Shown: positions 41,713-47,123 of the stretch, piece after piece
Position numbering within the stretch: position 1 is the stretch's first letter
Layout of the letters: every line of letters starts with the position of its first letter
DNA from: Fibrobacter sp. UWB5
GTDB lineage: Bacteria > Fibrobacterota > Fibrobacteria > Fibrobacterales > Fibrobacteraceae
Direction of reading: 5' to 3'
NCBI RefSeq assembly: GCF_002210295.1
Contig: NZ_MWQH01000002.1
Location: forward strand, 62,001-126,000
DNA length: 64,000 nucleotides
Made by a program: the position numbers and the translations under genes
The notes under the pieces: generated by a model
What the model saw: only the letters and a program-made list of their open reading frames with translations
Databases searched by the model: none
Told to the model about the DNA's origin: nothing

Positions 41713-41743
41713 AAGGACCTTGGTTTTGCCAAGGTCTTTTTTT
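41713..41743 (+). terminator. Terminator of the DUF3332 gene
   Basis: GACCTTGG pairs with CCAAGGTC across a ttttg loop, followed by seven T. It isolates this gene from the signalling module downstream. Confidence 0.85.
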
Positions 41744-41768
41744 ATTGATTTTATTATATATTTAGGCT

Positions 41769-42473
41769 ATGCTTAGGCGTGTGTGCTACATAGGGGTGTT
41801 GTTGTTCACCTTGTCTTTGATGTCTTGCGTCAATGACGACATCAAACGTGGAAACGACGCCTTGCGTATTGGCGACTATGAACGCGCTATTACGAATTTC
41901 TCGAAAGCCTTGGATGTTGAACCGGCCAACCGCGATGCCCGTTACGGGCTTGCGCTTTCGTTCTATGCCGAAGCGGAACAAGCGGACCGTTTCAACGATT
42001 CCTCGTTTGTCCGTTGGAGTCGCGCCGCCCGCGAATTCAAGATTCTTTACGGTCTAGATAGTAGCGGAAGCATCAATGCCAATTATTCGACTTGCTTGTT
42101 CTACTTGGCCCGCGCTACGTTGAATCAAGATGCGTCTGCAAATGTGTTGCCCTTATTGGATAAATCTATACAACTGGATAGTTTGAACTATTTTAGCTAT
42201 AACTTGAAGGGCTTGATTCTTGCCCGGAGCAGTGCTCCTGGTAATCTGAATAGCGCAAAGAACATATTCATCCATATCGTGACTCGAGAACCCGGATTCA
42301 TTTCGGCGTACATCAACCTCGGAAATATCTACTGGGAAGAAGGCGATGTGGAATCGGCCTGGGATACTTGGTCTGCGGGCTTGCAGAAGGCGCCCACGAA
42401 CAGCTCCCTGATTTACTGGACTCAGGTTGCCGAAGATTCTTTGAAGTCGATGGTGCTTTCGGGTAGACTATGA
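41769..42473 (+). CDS. TPR-repeat lipoprotein at the head of the kinase module
   Basis: The 234-residue protein has a lipoprotein signal (FTLSLMSC, Cys20). Tetratricopeptide repeats follow: GNDALRIGDYERAITNFSKAL, NANYSTCLFYLARATLN, YFSYNLKGLILARS and FISAYINLGNIYWEEGDVESAW. These form a protein-binding scaffold on the periplasmic side of a membrane. TATATTTA (41757-41764) ends 5 nt before the ATG. Its last 4 nt overlap the kinase gene, so they are coupled. A role as sensor or partner for the kinase's extracytoplasmic tail is inferred from this coupling. Confidence 0.82.
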   Translation: MLRRVCYIGVLLFTLSLMSCVNDDIKRGNDALRIGDYERAITNFSKALDVEPANRDARYGLALSFYAEAEQADRFNDSSFVRWSRAAREFKILYGLDSSGSINANYSTCLFYLARATLNQDASANVLPLLDKSIQLDSLNYFSYNLKGLILARSSAPGNLNSAKNIFIHIVTREPGFISAYINLGNIYWEEGDVESAWDTWSAGLQKAPTNSSLIYWTQVAEDSLKSMVLSGRL

Positions 42474-43630
42474 GCGTAAAAAGCGAAAAGTCTATGGCAA
42501 GCATCTTGGACAGGGCTTGCGATTGCGCCTTGTTGCATCAGGGTGGCGAAGCCGATGTTTACGAACTTGCATGTGGCGAAGACTTTTATGCCTTAAAGTG
42601 GTACCATTCCGGTTGCCGCTTTGAAGAATCCGTCGTTGACCGCCTGAAGCACTTGAACATTCCTGGGCTTTACCGAGTCCGCGAATCGGGCGTTCGTGAT
42701 AATACGCCATACTTGGTTTACGATTTTATTGAGGGCGTGAGTTCGGCTGATGTTCCGGCGATGCCGGTAGCGGTGGCATTGAAACTCTTGCGTGGAGTAG
42801 TGCAGACACTTGATGCCTTGAATAAAGAAGATATCCATCACGGCGATATCAACCCTTCGAATGTCTTGCTTTGCAAGTCTGGCAATAGCTTGCAGACTCT
42901 TGTGATCGATTGCGGCATTGTGGGGCCCGGCGCCTTGGCTTATGCGGCTCCGGAACGCTTTCAAGGCAAGCCCGCCAGCACGCAGAGCGACCTCTACAGT
43001 TTGGGAATGCTTTTGTTCCGCTGGATTGCCGGCGTTGATTTGCTTGAATCGGACGATTACAACAATCTGGCTGCCCAAGCTCTGGCTATCGAAGGCTTGG
43101 ATATTTCTTCGCGACTTTATGACCTGGACCGTTGCAAGCCGCAGGAGCTTTCGGCACTGGAGCCTTTGTGGAAGGCCATGCTGCGGGAATCTCCGGAAAA
43201 CCGTGCCGAAGATTTTGACGAGTTGGACGAACTTCTGGAAATCGCCCTCGAATCGATCGGCGTGGGGGAGGTAACCGCCCAAACGGCTCTGCAAAAATAT
43301 GCTGGCGAAGTCCTTCCCGAAAAAATGGGGCGAAAATTCCCGACAGAGCAAAAAAGCGCTTTCCCGTACAGCCAAAACGATAATGAAAACAAAAAAAATA
43401 CCTTAAAAATTGCCGTTTTGGCCATTTTAGGACTTATATTAATTGCAACGGCGTTTTTCGTGTTGGTTGGGACAAAAAGTCCCGACATCGACGAAACAGG
43501 AAATTTGTTGCTTCAGAAATCCAGAAGTCTGGAATCGGTTGAATCGGGATTGGAAAGTCGTGGAAATTCTGCTCCTGATACGCTTCCGCCTGCGGTACTG
43601 AAGGATTTGCCTACGCCCGTATCGGAATAG
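42470..43630 (+). CDS. Transmembrane eukaryotic-like Ser/Thr protein kinase
   Basis: The 386-residue protein has an N-terminal kinase domain (~15-265): a degenerate Gly loop (QGGEADVY, 24-31), Lys43 in YALKW, a catalytic HGDINPSNVL with Asp126 and Asn131, and DCG in place of DFG (147-149). AAPERF and SDLYSLGMLL follow in the activation segment. A single membrane helix (~312-334) leads to a ~50-residue extracytoplasmic tail rich in Ser and Pro. Key catalytic residues are present, so it is probably active. It is coupled to the TPR lipoprotein by a 4-nt overlap and precedes the sigma-54 activator by 19 nt. Confidence 0.85.
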   Translation: MSVKSEKSMASILDRACDCALLHQGGEADVYELACGEDFYALKWYHSGCRFEESVVDRLKHLNIPGLYRVRESGVRDNTPYLVYDFIEGVSSADVPAMPVAVALKLLRGVVQTLDALNKEDIHHGDINPSNVLLCKSGNSLQTLVIDCGIVGPGALAYAAPERFQGKPASTQSDLYSLGMLLFRWIAGVDLLESDDYNNLAAQALAIEGLDISSRLYDLDRCKPQELSALEPLWKAMLRESPENRAEDFDELDELLEIALESIGVGEVTAQTALQKYAGEVLPEKMGRKFPTEQKSAFPYSQNDNENKKNTLKIAVLAILGLILIATAFFVLVGTKSPDIDETGNLLLQKSRSLESVESGLESRGNSAPDTLPPAVLKDLPTPVSE

Positions 43631-43649
43631 TTTTTGAAAGAGGTTTCGT

Positions 43650-45104
43650 ATGAAGTCAGAATCGATGCTCGCGACAGAAAGAATGCTCGATGTCGTAAGA
43701 ATCTTACTGGATGAAGTCCAGCCGGAATCTCTTTTTGTGAAAATTCTCGAAGTGGCCAAGGATGTATTGCATGCCGATGCCGCGGTCCTTGATACCGGCG
43801 GCGAAAATGCGATTCACTTGAGCAATCCCGAAAAAGTTTCGATTTCTATTTCTGCAGTAAAGCAGGCCAAGCTCGAAAAGAAGGCCGTGGTGTGGAACCA
43901 GCTCGATGACGATTCCGCCGACCTTTCGAAGTCTATTGTACAGAACCAGCTGACAAGCATCATGGTGTCGCCGTTCCGCACGCCCGAAAGCGAAGCCGGT
44001 TACCTGTACTTGCAACGCGCAGCCCGCGAAGAACCTTTTACCGAAGACGATAGCGCCCTGTTCGATTCCTTCGTGATGGTGTGCGAAAAGTTCGCCTTTG
44101 CCGCCTTCGACCGTTTGCGCGACAAGGAATCCTTGAATGTCTTGCGCAATGTCATCCGCAAAGACGGCATTGTGTATTCGAGCAAGGCCATGTCCGACTT
44201 GATCGCTCTTGCAGACAAATTAGCAGGGCTCCCGATGCCGGTAATTATCCGTGGCGAAACGGGAACCGGTAAAGAAGTCATTGCCCGCTATATTCACAGG
44301 CATAGCCCTCGCGCAGACAAGCCTTTTATCGCTGTCAACTGTGGCGCCATTCCGGAACACTTGATGGAATCGCTTTTGTTCGGACATGCCAAGGGTTCAT
44401 TTACGGGAGCCATTGAAACCCGTAAGGGATTTTTTGAAGAAGCCGATGGCGGAACGATTTTCCTCGATGAAATCGGTGAACTGCCCATGAACATGCAGGT
44501 GAAGCTTTTGCGCGTGCTGCAGGAAAAGCACATTACCCGCGTGGGCGACAACCGCGAAATTCCGGTGAACGTGCGCATCATTAGTGCAACGCATGTAGAC
44601 TTGGAAGAAGCAGTCAAGGCAAAGCGCTTTAGGGAAGACTTGTACTTCCGTATTCAGGTGATGCCGGTAGAAATGCCGCCCCTGAGAGACCGCGGACAAG
44701 ACGTTGTTCTCTTGGCCGAGGAATTCCTGACCCGCTATGGGGCGGAATACGGCCGCGGAAAGTTCCACTTGAGCCGTAACGCCGAAAAGGCGATGCTCAG
44801 CTACCACTGGCCGGGCAACGTGCGCGAACTCGAAAACAAGGTCCAGAAGGCCCTGGTTCAGGCGGTGCATGGGGTCGTTCAGCCCGCCGATTTGGGCTTG
44901 GGCGATGTCCAGTCGCAGGCCAAGGAGTCTCCGCGTACGCTTAAGGAAGCCCGCGAAATCGTGGAACGCGAAGTAATTGGCAGGGCGCTTTCCGACAGTA
45001 ATGCGAATCTGACGCTCGCAGCGACGATTTTGGGCATCGACCGCAAGGTTCTGCGCGAAATTATGGAAAGATTGGGAATGAAAAAAGAAGACTATAAGAA
45101 ATAG
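43650..45104 (+). CDS. Sigma-54-dependent activator with GAF, AAA+ and Fis domains
   Basis: The 484-residue protein has a GAF-like sensor (~10-155) and a sigma-54 AAA+ domain (~170-400) with Walker A GETGTGKE (202-209). The sigma-54 contact loop is GSFTGA (249-254, usually GAFTGA). Walker B reads TIFLDEIGELP. FRIQVMPVEMPPLRDR and YHWPGNVREL follow, then a Fis-type helix-turn-helix (~440-475). It remodels sigma-54 polymerase at -24/-12 promoters. It lacks a receiver domain, so control by the GAF ligand or by the adjacent kinase is likely. A consensus sigma-54 promoter lies 33 nt after its stop. Confidence 0.92.
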   Translation: MKSESMLATERMLDVVRILLDEVQPESLFVKILEVAKDVLHADAAVLDTGGENAIHLSNPEKVSISISAVKQAKLEKKAVVWNQLDDDSADLSKSIVQNQLTSIMVSPFRTPESEAGYLYLQRAAREEPFTEDDSALFDSFVMVCEKFAFAAFDRLRDKESLNVLRNVIRKDGIVYSSKAMSDLIALADKLAGLPMPVIIRGETGTGKEVIARYIHRHSPRADKPFIAVNCGAIPEHLMESLLFGHAKGSFTGAIETRKGFFEEADGGTIFLDEIGELPMNMQVKLLRVLQEKHITRVGDNREIPVNVRIISATHVDLEEAVKAKRFREDLYFRIQVMPVEMPPLRDRGQDVVLLAEEFLTRYGAEYGRGKFHLSRNAEKAMLSYHWPGNVRELENKVQKALVQAVHGVVQPADLGLGDVQSQAKESPRTLKEAREIVEREVIGRALSDSNANLTLAATILGIDRKVLREIMERLGMKKEDYKK

Positions 45105-45136
45105 TTTTATATATTTATTATAGCCTAAAAGACGGT

Positions 45137-45151
45137 TGGCACGGAATTTGC
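45137..45151 (+). promoter_or_regulatory. Sigma-54 (-24/-12) promoter
   Basis: TGGCACGGAATTTGC matches the consensus TGGCAC-N5-TTGC with the required 12-bp step between GG (45138-45139) and GC (45150-45151). Transcription would start near 45163, one base before the ATG of the next gene. Confidence 0.85.
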
Positions 45152-45163
45152 AAGAGATTGAGT

Positions 45164-45643
45164 ATGAAAAAGACTACTTTCATAACGACAATTATGATGG
45201 CTGCAGCGCTTAGCTACGCTGCTCCGTCTTCTGCGCGTCCGGAGTCTTCTGTCCCGACCCCCGCCGAGAATATGGAAATTTCGCGAGAAATGCCCAATCT
45301 CGGTGCAAAGGAAAGCGCAGATTGGCAGAAATTGCGCGCAGAACGTCGTGCTGCCCGAGAGCAAATTCTTAGGGACTTGCGCAACAGTTCCGCCGCGGAA
45401 AAGAAAAATATCCGCCAGGAAGTCTCGAAAAAACGAGACGAAAAGCCTCGCTTGGAGGGGGAAATCCCGAAAAATCAATCTCGCGAACGTCGTCCTTTTT
45501 ATGAGCAACCTGGGTCTCATCAAATGAACCCGATGCGAGAAATGCCCCATGGTCCGGGGCCGGCTCCCATGTATCCCATGAATCCCATGCATCCCATGTA
45601 CCCCATGGGTCCTGTGAAGCCGATGGATCATCCCCATCGCTAA
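45164..45643 (+). CDS. Exported Met/Pro/His-rich protein under sigma-54 control
   Basis: The 159-residue protein has a signal peptide (1-20, ending LSYA). A charged helical middle (~45-105) is rich in Arg, Glu and Lys. The C-terminal ~40 residues are dominated by Met, Pro, His and Tyr, with repeated MxPM units (MYPMNPMHPMYPMGP). Met- and His-rich segments of this type bind Cu(I) or Ag(I) in known periplasmic proteins, so metal binding is a hypothesis. The start at 45164 leaves essentially no leader behind the sigma-54 promoter. The stop touches the ATG of the barrel gene. Confidence 0.75.
   Translation: MKKTTFITTIMMAAALSYAAPSSARPESSVPTPAENMEISREMPNLGAKESADWQKLRAERRAAREQILRDLRNSSAAEKKNIRQEVSKKRDEKPRLEGEIPKNQSRERRPFYEQPGSHQMNPMREMPHGPGPAPMYPMNPMHPMYPMGPVKPMDHPHR
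45569..45613 (+). repeat. Five tandem 9-bp units encoding Met-x-Pro
   Basis: Consecutive units ATGTATCCC, ATGAATCCC, ATGCATCCC, ATGTACCCC and ATGGGTCCT lie in frame within the Met/Pro/His-rich gene, consistent with expansion by slippage. Confidence 0.85.
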
Positions 45644-46954
45644 ATGCGTTTCATTGTAATAGTGCTATTGATGTTTTCGTCTTTGCTTTATGCCGAGACG
45701 CAAGAATCTGTGTACTTCCGTGCAATGAAGGCTGAAGAAGCCGGTGATGTGTCGGCCGCCCTTGCAGCCTTCGAAGAAGCGGTTCAGATTCCCGGTCCCT
45801 ATACTGAGGAACTTCGCGAAATCATTGACGAATATTATAAGGCCCTTGATGCGACTACGGAAACGAAGAATCCGTGGTCGCTTCGTTTTTTGGGGGATCT
45901 CGGTTTTTACGGCTTGCATTATAATGAATATGGCGGTGTAGAGAAAGTCAGCGAAACCGGCGGTGACATCTTCTTTTCGCTGACGCCATTTGTGGACTAT
46001 TCTACGGGCGACTGGATTCATTCTTTTGGACTGGGTTTTTCGGGCGACTGGTTTGTGGCGAACGAAGATATGCCCGTGCTCGATACGAACGACTGGAATA
46101 TTTCGGTCGGGCTTGAATATTCCTTGGTCGGTAAATCCCTGATGCTTGACGTGGGTGCCGATATCAAGATTGTCGAAGGCGCTTACGTTTCTCCCAATTT
46201 TTATGTGTGGGTGGAACGCGATTTCTACCGCTTTGAAAAGCAGCGTGTCGGTGCGGCGGCCTGGGGGTACTATGATCCCGATGGTCCGCTTTCGTTTGCA
46301 TTATACGGCTCCTGGCACAGGATGGTTCCTTACGGCTTGAACTGGTCTGTTTATGCGGGGGCCCGTTTCGAGGCGGATTCCGCGGTGGATTTTGTGAGCT
46401 ATATGGAGTCGTATAAGAACGCTATTGAAGAGTTGGAACAAGAAGATGAATGGGGTACAGAGAATCAGTGGGGAAATTATTCCATGTACGGAAACTGGCA
46501 GAACCCGATGCAGGTTTGTCTGGAAACCTATGGACCGGAATGCTATAATTGGAATGTCGGAAAGCTGGATTCCATGTATTGGGCGCAGCAGAATGCGTCT
46601 AAGGATACGACGTCTTCCATTAGTGTAGCGATTCCCAAGTATTTTGCCAAATGGTTTGGCCCAACCCTCCGTTCACGGGTGTCCTATAAGTTCAAGCGCA
46701 ATATAACGCTCGAGGCGAGGCTCAATCTGTTCTACGGTTTTGTCTTGGATGGCCCGGATAGCAATTACGAAAAGATGCGTAAATTCAGTGGCGTCTGGGG
46801 AACCATGCTTTATTGGAAACCGAATGCATTGACGCTCTATTTAGGCGTTGAACAATTCTACAAGCATTACAGCTTGCCCCGATATTATAAGGGCGTCTAT
46901 CCGGAAAACAGTATTCTTTCTGAAATGAAAGTCGGTTTCAAGTGGGAAATTTAA
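45644..46954 (+). CDS. Exported TPR-like plus outer-membrane barrel protein
   Basis: The 436-residue protein has a signal peptide (1-17). A short TPR-like helical part (~20-75; MKAEEAGDVSAALAAFEEAVQ) is followed by strand-rich segments from ~80 (LRFLGDLGFYGLHY, SFGLGFSGDWFVA, ISVGLEYSLVG, YVSPNFYVWVERDF). The last strand reads EMKVGFKWEI with a terminal aromatic/hydrophobic pattern, typical of outer-membrane barrels. It starts directly after the stop of the Met/Pro/His-rich gene, so both depend on the sigma-54 promoter. No family is recognised. Confidence 0.72.
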   Translation: MRFIVIVLLMFSSLLYAETQESVYFRAMKAEEAGDVSAALAAFEEAVQIPGPYTEELREIIDEYYKALDATTETKNPWSLRFLGDLGFYGLHYNEYGGVEKVSETGGDIFFSLTPFVDYSTGDWIHSFGLGFSGDWFVANEDMPVLDTNDWNISVGLEYSLVGKSLMLDVGADIKIVEGAYVSPNFYVWVERDFYRFEKQRVGAAAWGYYDPDGPLSFALYGSWHRMVPYGLNWSVYAGARFEADSAVDFVSYMESYKNAIEELEQEDEWGTENQWGNYSMYGNWQNPMQVCLETYGPECYNWNVGKLDSMYWAQQNASKDTTSSISVAIPKYFAKWFGPTLRSRVSYKFKRNITLEARLNLFYGFVLDGPDSNYEKMRKFSGVWGTMLYWKPNALTLYLGVEQFYKHYSLPRYYKGVYPENSILSEMKVGFKWEI

Positions 46955-46958
46955 AAAC

Positions 46959-46989
46959 GAAAAAAGCAGGACGACGTCCTGCTTTTTTA
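46959..46989. terminator. Bidirectional terminator between the barrel gene and tRNA-Ala
   Basis: GCAGGAC pairs with GTCCTGC across gac, flanked by A and T runs on both sides. It serves both the barrel gene and the convergent tRNA. Confidence 0.88.
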
Positions 46990-47062
46990 TGGAGATAGTG
47001 GGAGTCGAACCCATGACCTACAGATTGCGAACCTGTCGCTCTACCAACTGAGCTATATCCCC
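46990..47062 (-). tRNA. tRNA-Ala (anticodon CGC)
   Basis: The 73-nt cloverleaf has acceptor GGGGATA/TATCTCC carrying the G3-U70 wobble that identifies alanine tRNAs. The anticodon loop TTCGCAA gives CGC (codon GCG). The outermost T-stem pair is an A-C mismatch. A73 follows and CCA is not encoded. TATATTGC (47082-47075 region) upstream is the likely promoter. Confidence 0.93.
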
Positions 47063-47123
47063 AGGATGTAGGCGCAATATAACTTATTTTGAGACCATTG
47101 GCAAGTCATGCGCCTTGATTGGA

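Follow-up and report, generated by a model that had tools for sequence, protein, structure and literature searches.

Does a Ser/Thr kinase control a sigma-54-dependent output in the envelope of Fibrobacter? This question is raised by a row of five genes at positions 41769 to 46954 of a stretch of 64,000 nucleotides (nt) from Fibrobacter sp. UWB5 (contig NZ_MWQH01000002.1, positions 62,001 to 126,000), which is referred to here as the window. All five open reading frames (ORFs) are on the + strand and encode, in this order, a TPR lipoprotein, a Hanks-type Ser/Thr kinase, a sigma-54 activator, a small exported protein, and a predicted outer-membrane barrel (Table 1). An earlier note, made from the letters of this DNA alone, had claimed these parts in this order; the ORFs were confirmed, the families were recovered with Pfam, and the barrel was supported by a structural model. 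Loci, genomes, families, and one genus are designated by the labels of our analysis (L-, G-, and f-numbers and g5). The window belongs to G000 (3.36 Mb, 17 contigs), which is assigned to Fibrobacter on the basis of 98% identity between its activator and the one encoded in the Fibrobacter succinogenes metagenome-assembled genome (MAG) RUG10152 (L040).

We favor, with reasonable though not high confidence, the view that the row is an envelope-monitoring transcription circuit made up of lipoprotein, Hanks-type kinase, sigma-54 activator, -24/-12 promoter, and exported output. Its steps would be as follows. (i) The TPR lipoprotein and the short tail of the single-pass kinase would meet in the periplasm. 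(ii) A change in the envelope would alter the activity of the cytoplasmic kinase. (iii) The kinase would phosphorylate the activator or itself and thereby switch the activator on, a step supported by FHA-type domains in relatives. (iv) At the -24/-12 site directly downstream of its own gene, a promoter known as a sequence, the activator would drive RNA polymerase-sigma-54. (v) The output would consist of the small exported protein and, in most Fibrobacter relatives, of a 14-strand TPR barrel of the outer membrane.

Conservation of the row

We compiled 36 Fibrobacter loci by means of the activator (L040 to L076, from which L071 was dropped, its identities being the same as those of L040). The gene order was retained with the lipoprotein in 34, the kinase in 35, the small gene after the activator in all 36, and the barrel in 32 loci. 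Both lipoprotein misses are loci that start inside the row, the single kinase miss corresponds to a contig end, and the lipoprotein match in L069 is limited to residues 192 to 234. An activator was present in 32 of the 37 Fibrobacter genomes, that of the window included; no close match was found in G012, G014, G022, and G030, which are 74 to 86% complete. Two oddities are probable binning errors: MAG RUG13674 contains the locus in two different versions (L071 and L073), and L044 is filed as Clostridiales yet is Fibrobacter-like.

The activator was then searched in 60 relatives and in its own genome. Among the matches listed, 17 from outside the genus covered most of the protein at 40 to 47% identity, and 12 of these loci, from eight genomes of families f3, f4, f5, and f8, were taken. 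The order TPR protein related to gene one, kinase, and activator was seen in 11 of the 12 loci; the remaining one, L187, ends 208 nt upstream of the activator. A blastp search with the window kinase recovered ten of the 11 kinases (E 3e-8 to 1e-3, the weakest being L181, L182, and L183), and the eleventh, L184, was identified by its motif and a Pfam match of 129.5 bits; Pfam scores for the three kinases scanned (L177, L178, and L184) were all above the cut-off. A simple lipobox pattern, applied with the starts of the other proteins left unrefined, flagged the gene-one relative in L178 and L184. For families f2, f6, f7, and f9, no full-length activator match was among those listed. Outside the phylum, a kinase motif was found beside the activator in none of 42 more distant loci, which were picked by activator similarity alone and include several short contigs; this motif recovered 7 of the 11 positives from other genera and 34 of the 37 from Fibrobacter. 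The synteny on which the earlier note had made its reading depend is thus conserved well beyond one strain, in 36 Fibrobacter loci and, for the core of TPR protein, kinase, and activator, in 11 of 12 loci from four other families.

Upstream of the gene-one relative in L184 (184 to 1815) there is a TPR-like protein that continues into a strand-rich-looking part, and similar-looking ORFs occur in L183 and L185. This protein could not be aligned with the window barrel, and homology to it is not supported.

Lipoprotein, kinase, and activator

The lipoprotein matches TPR_16 with 39.8 bits (cut-off 32.7), and its Cys20 is invariant in 17 of 17 aligned orthologues, followed by V, N, or R. By the Escherichia coli rule, such a residue after the lipoprotein Cys favors the outer membrane, where this protein is probably located.

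Gene two matches Pkinase PF00069 with 53.2 bits (cut-off 31.7). K43, D126, N131, D147, and the APE motif at residues 160 to 162 are invariant in all 18 sequences aligned, with HGD in place of HRD, and the Lys, HxD Asp, Asn, and DxG Asp of a Hanks-type catalytic site are therefore all present. The structural model has a kinase fold, with PknB as its best structural match, and a single long helix (residues 305 to 334) that is the predicted transmembrane helix. The tail of about 50 residues beyond it contains an IDxTG...SR segment and, in most of the 18 sequences, an LPxP ending. Since only this short tail lies beyond the helix, the kinase itself seems to lack a sensory domain in the periplasm.

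Of the five proteins, the activator varies least (82 to 98% identical over the 36 loci). Its AAA domain is unambiguous (Sigma54_activat PF00158, 243 bits, residues 175 to 340), and its GSFTGA loop, a variant of GAFTGA, is invariant in the 36 activators compared. The GAF-AAA-Fis architecture proposed earlier thus stands for the AAA part and, at the cut-off, for the Fis-type helix-turn-helix (HTH_8 PF02954, 22.0 bits against a cut-off of 22; 21.9 to 32.1 bits in all 10 relatives scanned); for GAF, the match of the window protein is marginal (GAF_2, 18.8 versus 28.6 bits), and PF01590 (GAF) is above its cut-off in 5 of the 10 relatives' activators scanned. "Phosphorelay," the term used for the kinase step, was wrong, since Pfam at E values up to 0.1 reported no receiver or histidine kinase family for the proteins of the row.

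How, then, could a Ser/Thr kinase reach this activator? We scanned 10 activators from families outside the genus Fibrobacter for FHA-type domains. FHA PF00498 exceeded its cut-off in L180, L182, and L183 and fell short of it in L177 and L184, and PF16697, which we take to be of the FHA-type fold, was below its cut-off in L178, L185, and L188. In total, eight of the 10 activators had an FHA-type match of any strength, three of them above the cut-off, and L179 and L187 had neither. Fibrobacter activators are about 100 residues shorter and do not contain this part, which they probably shed by loss. FHA domains bind phosphothreonine (PMC2875238; the portion of this article available to us contains nothing on FHA activators). 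Because the cognate activators of relatives carry such domains, these matches support signaling from the Ser/Thr kinase to the activator, and they are the best evidence here for that step.

The -24/-12 promoter and a putative activator site

The consensus sigma-54 promoter claimed between the activator gene and the last two genes was recovered as an exact match. When two mismatches were allowed, the pattern had 7 matches in the window compared to 6.35 in shuffled sequences, and only the exact one stood out; because two-mismatch matches are indistinguishable from chance, the case for this promoter rests on the exact match and its conservation. Exact sites were counted genome-wide: G000 contains 9 and none of the reversed pattern, and 15 other Fibrobacter genomes contain 165, with 8 in the reversed control. 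The site precedes the small gene in 25 of the 36 relatives, exactly in 23 and with one edge mismatch each in L046 and L060. It lies 29 nt from the start codon used here in 20 of these 25, and its flanks diverge. Scores of a position weight matrix (PWM) were 18.6 to 30.1 in the 25 promoter-bearing loci; in the remaining 11, no site scored above 10.3.

These 11 loci form one clade, consistent with one change (support 93/100, just under the star of the tool; 94% of bootstrap trees; L074 was left out of the tree). Their intergenic stretch measures 44 to 54 nt and includes an AGGAG that resembles a ribosome-binding site; nowhere in the locus does a site reach a comparable score. Since the promoter is missing in this clade, it is not an obligatory part of the system. 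In these loci, the small gene is probably cotranscribed with the activator.

Genus g5 provides an indication of where the activator might bind. In six species of this genus, the activator gene is followed by a gene for a small protein (A5) that looks exported. In all six aligned species, the interval between both genes contains an element resembling GGAACGAAAGGTGTCG (a variant in one species) as well as a GG-N10-GC element with TTGC. The pattern of the former element, when loosened, had one match per genome, at this locus, in five of the six genomes; the sixth, G048, has the variant, which is outside the pattern. This element may be regarded as a footprinted, putative activator site, and it supports a local loop.

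Two further motifs were rejected as activator sites. GTTTC-N5-GAAAC, seen at dnaK, was absent upstream of 26 small-gene promoters, apart from one looser match in L053, and its genome count (5) was below that of the reversed control (14). GGAAC-N4-GTTCC occurred at 15 places versus 10 in the control, which is no clear signal.

The predicted exported output

The Met/Pro/His richness described for the small protein is real in the window protein but is a property of its tail, which varies in length and composition among 25 aligned orthologues, whereas the core (about residues 26 to 69) is conserved. Metal or copper binding through this tail was therefore rejected as a general function, and with it the hint at copper drawn from the composition. 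Neither the small protein nor the barrel had a convincing Pfam or NCBIfam match; the best for the window proteins had E values of 0.01 (Tektin) and 0.036 (LRR_adjacent). Of the orthologues, 1 of 25 small proteins matched R3H-assoc (E 0.00068), and LRR_adjacent (best E 0.00087; 10 of 32 at E up to 0.1), Glyco_hydro_120_ins (best E 0.00046; 2 of 32), and, weakly, TPR_2 (7 of 32) matched barrels.

The AlphaFold2 model of gene five has three TPR-type helices and 14 strands, with a mean predicted local distance difference test (pLDDT) score of 81. It aligns with CymA over 268 residues (Z 21.5; root mean square deviation [rmsd] 3.3) and with BcsC, including its terminal TPR, over 278 residues (Z 12.4, rmsd 8.2), and the protein is thus predicted to be an antiparallel outer-membrane barrel. 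No Slam-type barrel was among the structural matches listed, which excludes nothing. Taken together, the envelope location predicted earlier for the parts is supported. In L063 to L066 the barrel was not found, and promoter and small gene are kept; for this reason, the small protein, rather than the barrel, is the predicted core output. Its probable role in the periplasm would be that of an adaptor, a chaperone, or a feedback ligand.

The small proteins of g5 and Fibrobacter were compared with hhalign. The g5 alignment gave a weak match over KESxDWQK (probability 73%, P 3e-5, 34 columns), and single g5 proteins against the Fibrobacter profile gave probabilities of 1.4 and 6.6%, which are not significant. 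For the small and barrel-like proteins of L179 and the upstream protein of L184, homology with the Fibrobacter proteins is not supported (probabilities of 0.1 to 1.2%).

Weighing of the proposed circuit and of alternative explanations

The earlier note had read the row as a complete circuit. Its kinase-to-activator step finds support in the FHA-type matches, and its local loop in the g5 site; one rpoN-type match (Sigma54_DBD) in G000 also speaks for the circuit. The promoter is missing in 11 and the barrel was not found in 4 of the 36 loci. A number of observations weigh against the circuit that we favor. (i) The 11 relatives without promoter keep the activator at 84 to 87% identity, and the activator of this clade would for this reason need other targets or another logic. 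(ii) Of 26 loci, 25 have a TATATT ahead of the -24/-12 site, at 23 to 65 nt in all 23 covered by the scan; of the three read separately, L064 and L075 have it and L065 does not. It is possibly a second, sigma-54-independent promoter. (iii) No activator site emerged in the window, where the best PWM score was 5.1 (shuffle p 0.26), and the g5-type pattern has zero matches genome-wide in G000. The same PWM reached p 0.05 or less in 8 of 26 loci, but at differing distances, and hence leaves no footprint; a site inside the 3' end of the activator gene was rejected, as third-position variability shows no drop there. (iv) In g5, the reversed pattern has 9 matches over the six genomes; the pattern itself is thus not rare, and the weight of the element lies in its placement. 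The -24/-12 element of g5 also departs from the consensus (AGGCG instead of TGGCA). (v) The window activator has no FHA match in Pfam at E up to 0.1. (vi) G008, a genome that is 99% complete, has no close match of either kinase or activator.

The alternative that survives best, although we judge it unlikely, is that the activator serves mainly as a sigma-54 stress regulator of wider range, acting for instance on chaperone genes, with the neighboring promoter as only one of several targets. We examined all 9 exact sites of G000 (L037 to L039 among the loci) and 51 of the 54 of six relatives (L125 to L175). In these seven genomes, 22 of the 60 sites precede dnaK (7), clpB (5), htpG (5), hsp20 (3), or groES (2); for one representative each, NCBIfam placed DnaK, HtpG, and GroES above and the clipped ClpB and Hsp20 below the cut-off. 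A sigma-54 heat-shock regulon of this kind would be unusual. The dnaK upstream regions (L038, L127, L135, L138, L149, L160, and L174) share an invariant GTTTCAGAACGAAAC shortly before the -24/-12 site (7/7), and its inner 8-mer, GAACGAAA, is common to the g5 activator site. This 8-mer, the strong conservation of the activator, and its persistence in the clade without local promoter favor a wider role. However, the dnaK genes are orthologues and count once, GAACGAAA was not found within 250 nt of any of 15 clpB, htpG, groES, and hsp20 sites, and the g5 activator site has only one exact match per genome in five of six genomes. Furthermore, G000 contains seven activator-type matches, and nothing assigns the activator of the row to the chaperones.

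A more far-reaching version of the favored circuit, speculative and in our estimation rather improbable, is that it is a mostly single-target circuit wide in Fibrobacterota in which lipoprotein and kinase replace a two-component sensor and the output feeds back by mimicry, competing for the lipoprotein and shutting the kinase off when its export has reached a sufficient level. A conserved VPTPxE-type segment of the small protein resembles, by eye, the LPxPxxE-type end of the periplasmic kinase tail, with which it could therefore compete.

It is more doubtful still that kinase and activator are unwired and that the row is an operon of envelope-related genes, its last pair being transcribed from the TATATT or by read-through. 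The recurrence of TATATT in 23 of 23 loci is in line with this, as are the absence of a reported terminator-like hairpin between activator and small gene in the window and the apparent ride of the pair on the activator transcript in 11 of 36 relatives; a -24/-12 site that 25 of 36 relatives retain amid diverging flanks, a core gene order kept across families, and the FHA-type matches of related activators speak against it. Chaperone feedback of the ZraPSR/CpxP type, with the small protein as a true ZraP/Spy relative, is very improbable: this protein is exported and under a sigma-54 promoter beside its activator, and zinc-bound ZraP is described as a repressor of its own operon in the part of PMC10848872 available, but Metal_resist matched 1 of 25 orthologues (E 0.046), LTXXQ was not listed, the single match among PDB sequences had an E of 9.7, and the Met/His tail is not conserved.

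Layout of the locus and further sigma-54 sites

Genes one and two overlap by 4 nt, gaps of 19 and 59 nt follow before genes three and four, and genes four and five abut.

Table 1. Features of the five-gene row and its borders (positions in the window)
Feature	Position	Strand	Basis
Terminator-like hairpin separating the row from the upstream DUF3332 gene	41713..41739	+	12 pairs and T run
TATATT that may be the -10 element of the first operon; 6 nt separate it from the lipoprotein ATG	41757..41762	+	Consensus only
Gene one: TPR lipoprotein, 234 amino acids (aa), Cys20 after signal sequence	41769..42473	+	Pfam, alignment
Gene two: Hanks-type Ser/Thr kinase, 386 aa	42470..43630	+	Pkinase match, alignment, model
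Gene three: sigma-54 activator with GAF-like domain, AAA+ with GSFTGA, Fis-type helix-turn-helix, 484 aa	43650..45104	+	Pfam, alignment
TATATT, possible sigma-70-type element upstream of the -24/-12 site	45110..45115	+	Recurrence in relatives
-24/-12 promoter TTGGCACGGAATTTGCA	45136..45152	+	Exact 17-nt match, conservation, PWM
Gene four: small exported protein, 159 aa, core at about residues 26 to 69, variable Met/Pro/His tail	45164..45643	+	Alignment
Gene five: outer-membrane protein, 436 aa, with signal sequence, three TPR-type helices, 14-strand barrel	45644..46954	+	Model
Terminator-like hairpin closing the row, near-symmetrical	46960..46988	reported on -	Hairpin scan

The first TATATT, if it is a -10 element, suggests a nearly leaderless lipoprotein message. 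The hairpin scan found 6 terminator-like hairpins in total versus 7.8 in shuffles, i.e., no excess, and reported none in the interval between activator and small gene. In L041 to L043, L058, and L060, a 5'-leader hairpin that varies in sequence is located between TATATT and the -24/-12 site; it is absent from the window and several other loci. Its z values were -4.9, -4.9, and -6.1 in L041, L058, and L060 (simple shuffles). A relative of the DUF3332 gene that precedes the row was detected by tblastn in 27 of the 36 Fibrobacter loci, 2 of the 9 misses being loci that start inside the row. Directly behind the row there is a tRNA-Ala (anticodon cgc; 46989 to 47063, - strand).

Other genes were also seen to have -24/-12 sites. 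(i) In six Fibrobacter genomes (L031, L129, L132, L145, L154, and L164) an exact site lies upstream of a 270-aa sigma-70-family factor (280 aa as called in L154), several with a TTGTCATA...TATGACAA-type palindrome, which would make a sigma cascade possible. (ii) Nitrogen genes (L033, L035, L036, and relatives), namely, glutamate synthase, PII, and a glutamine-synthetase-like gene, have -24/-12 sites and TTTACA...TGTAAA-like repeats upstream; PII and the glutamine-synthetase-like gene were below the NCBIfam model cut-offs. (iii) A gene read as exported and porin-like, without NCBIfam match (L034, L128, L133, L141, L158, and L171) has a -24/-12 site preceded by a conserved hairpin-like stretch.

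Related systems and significance

To our knowledge, histidine kinases or ligands act as the switch for most sigma-54 activators described so far, and Ser/Thr-kinase circuits are known mainly from Myxococcus. Jelsbak is said to have described, in 2005, sigma-54 activators of Myxococcus xanthus that combine FHA, AAA, and Fis parts and are thought to be steered by Ser/Thr kinases. The relatives of the row share this reported architecture, and the logic would be similar; unlike these proteins, the window activator has no FHA match, and kinase, lipoprotein, and presumed target are united in one conserved row.

The earlier note knew of no described system with these parts, yet a similar design is in print. 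The closest described design belongs to the PEP-CTERM/EpsH system. According to the part of the article available (PMC1569441), this design, PrsT-PrsK-PrsR, likewise comprises a TPR protein with lipoprotein signal, a transmembrane kinase, and a Fis-family sigma-54 activator, and its proposed role is to switch exported proteins via an upstream motif and a -24/-12 site. Among NCBIfam models, PrsR fits the window activator best (361 bits, below the cut-off of 502.6), and the PrsT model scored 35.8 bits on the lipoprotein (cut-off 312.2). In contrast to the histidine kinase PrsK and the response regulator of Prs, the row has a Hanks-type Ser/Thr kinase and a GAF-type activator, with an FHA-type part in relatives, and no PEP-CTERM ending, as carried by the Prs targets, was seen on the window small protein. 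Judged by its families, the row is not a member of Prs: it has the TPR lipoprotein beside kinase and activator, without a detected histidine kinase or receiver.

ZraPSR and CpxP-CpxAR, as far as covered by the accessible text of PMC10848872, similarly place a small exported accessory protein beside an envelope sensor-activator pair, but use a two-component kinase, and the small protein here has no detectable homology to theirs; the NCBIfam comparison included the ZraR model NF007689, a sigma-54-dependent activator. The proteins of the row thus belong to the sigma-54 activators and Hanks-type kinases and, as far as sequence tells, not to ZraP/Spy. In the type VI secretion system RtkS-PpkA-Fha, a periplasmic protein activates the kinase PpkA, whose substrate is an FHA protein; the output there, in the portion of PMC10482370 available, is assembly of the secretion machine and not transcription. 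A link of sigma-54 with the bacterial exterior is a published generalization (PMC3162934, available in part), and an envelope output is therefore expected rather than surprising. Among the open-licence Fibrobacter papers listed, titles and abstract openings contained nothing on sigma-54 or the kinase of the row in this genus, which is no proof of absence; in the accessible text of the F. succinogenes membrane-proteome paper (PMC4619616), "kinase" does not occur and "sigma" occurs once, as a supplier.

The design is new in combination, not in kind. With presumed sensor, kinase, activator, and target promoter together, the kinase-to-sigma-54 step becomes directly testable. The core is kept in five of the nine Fibrobacterota families sampled, and the circuit would be a regulatory handle on the envelope of Fibrobacter, a rumen cellulose degrader.

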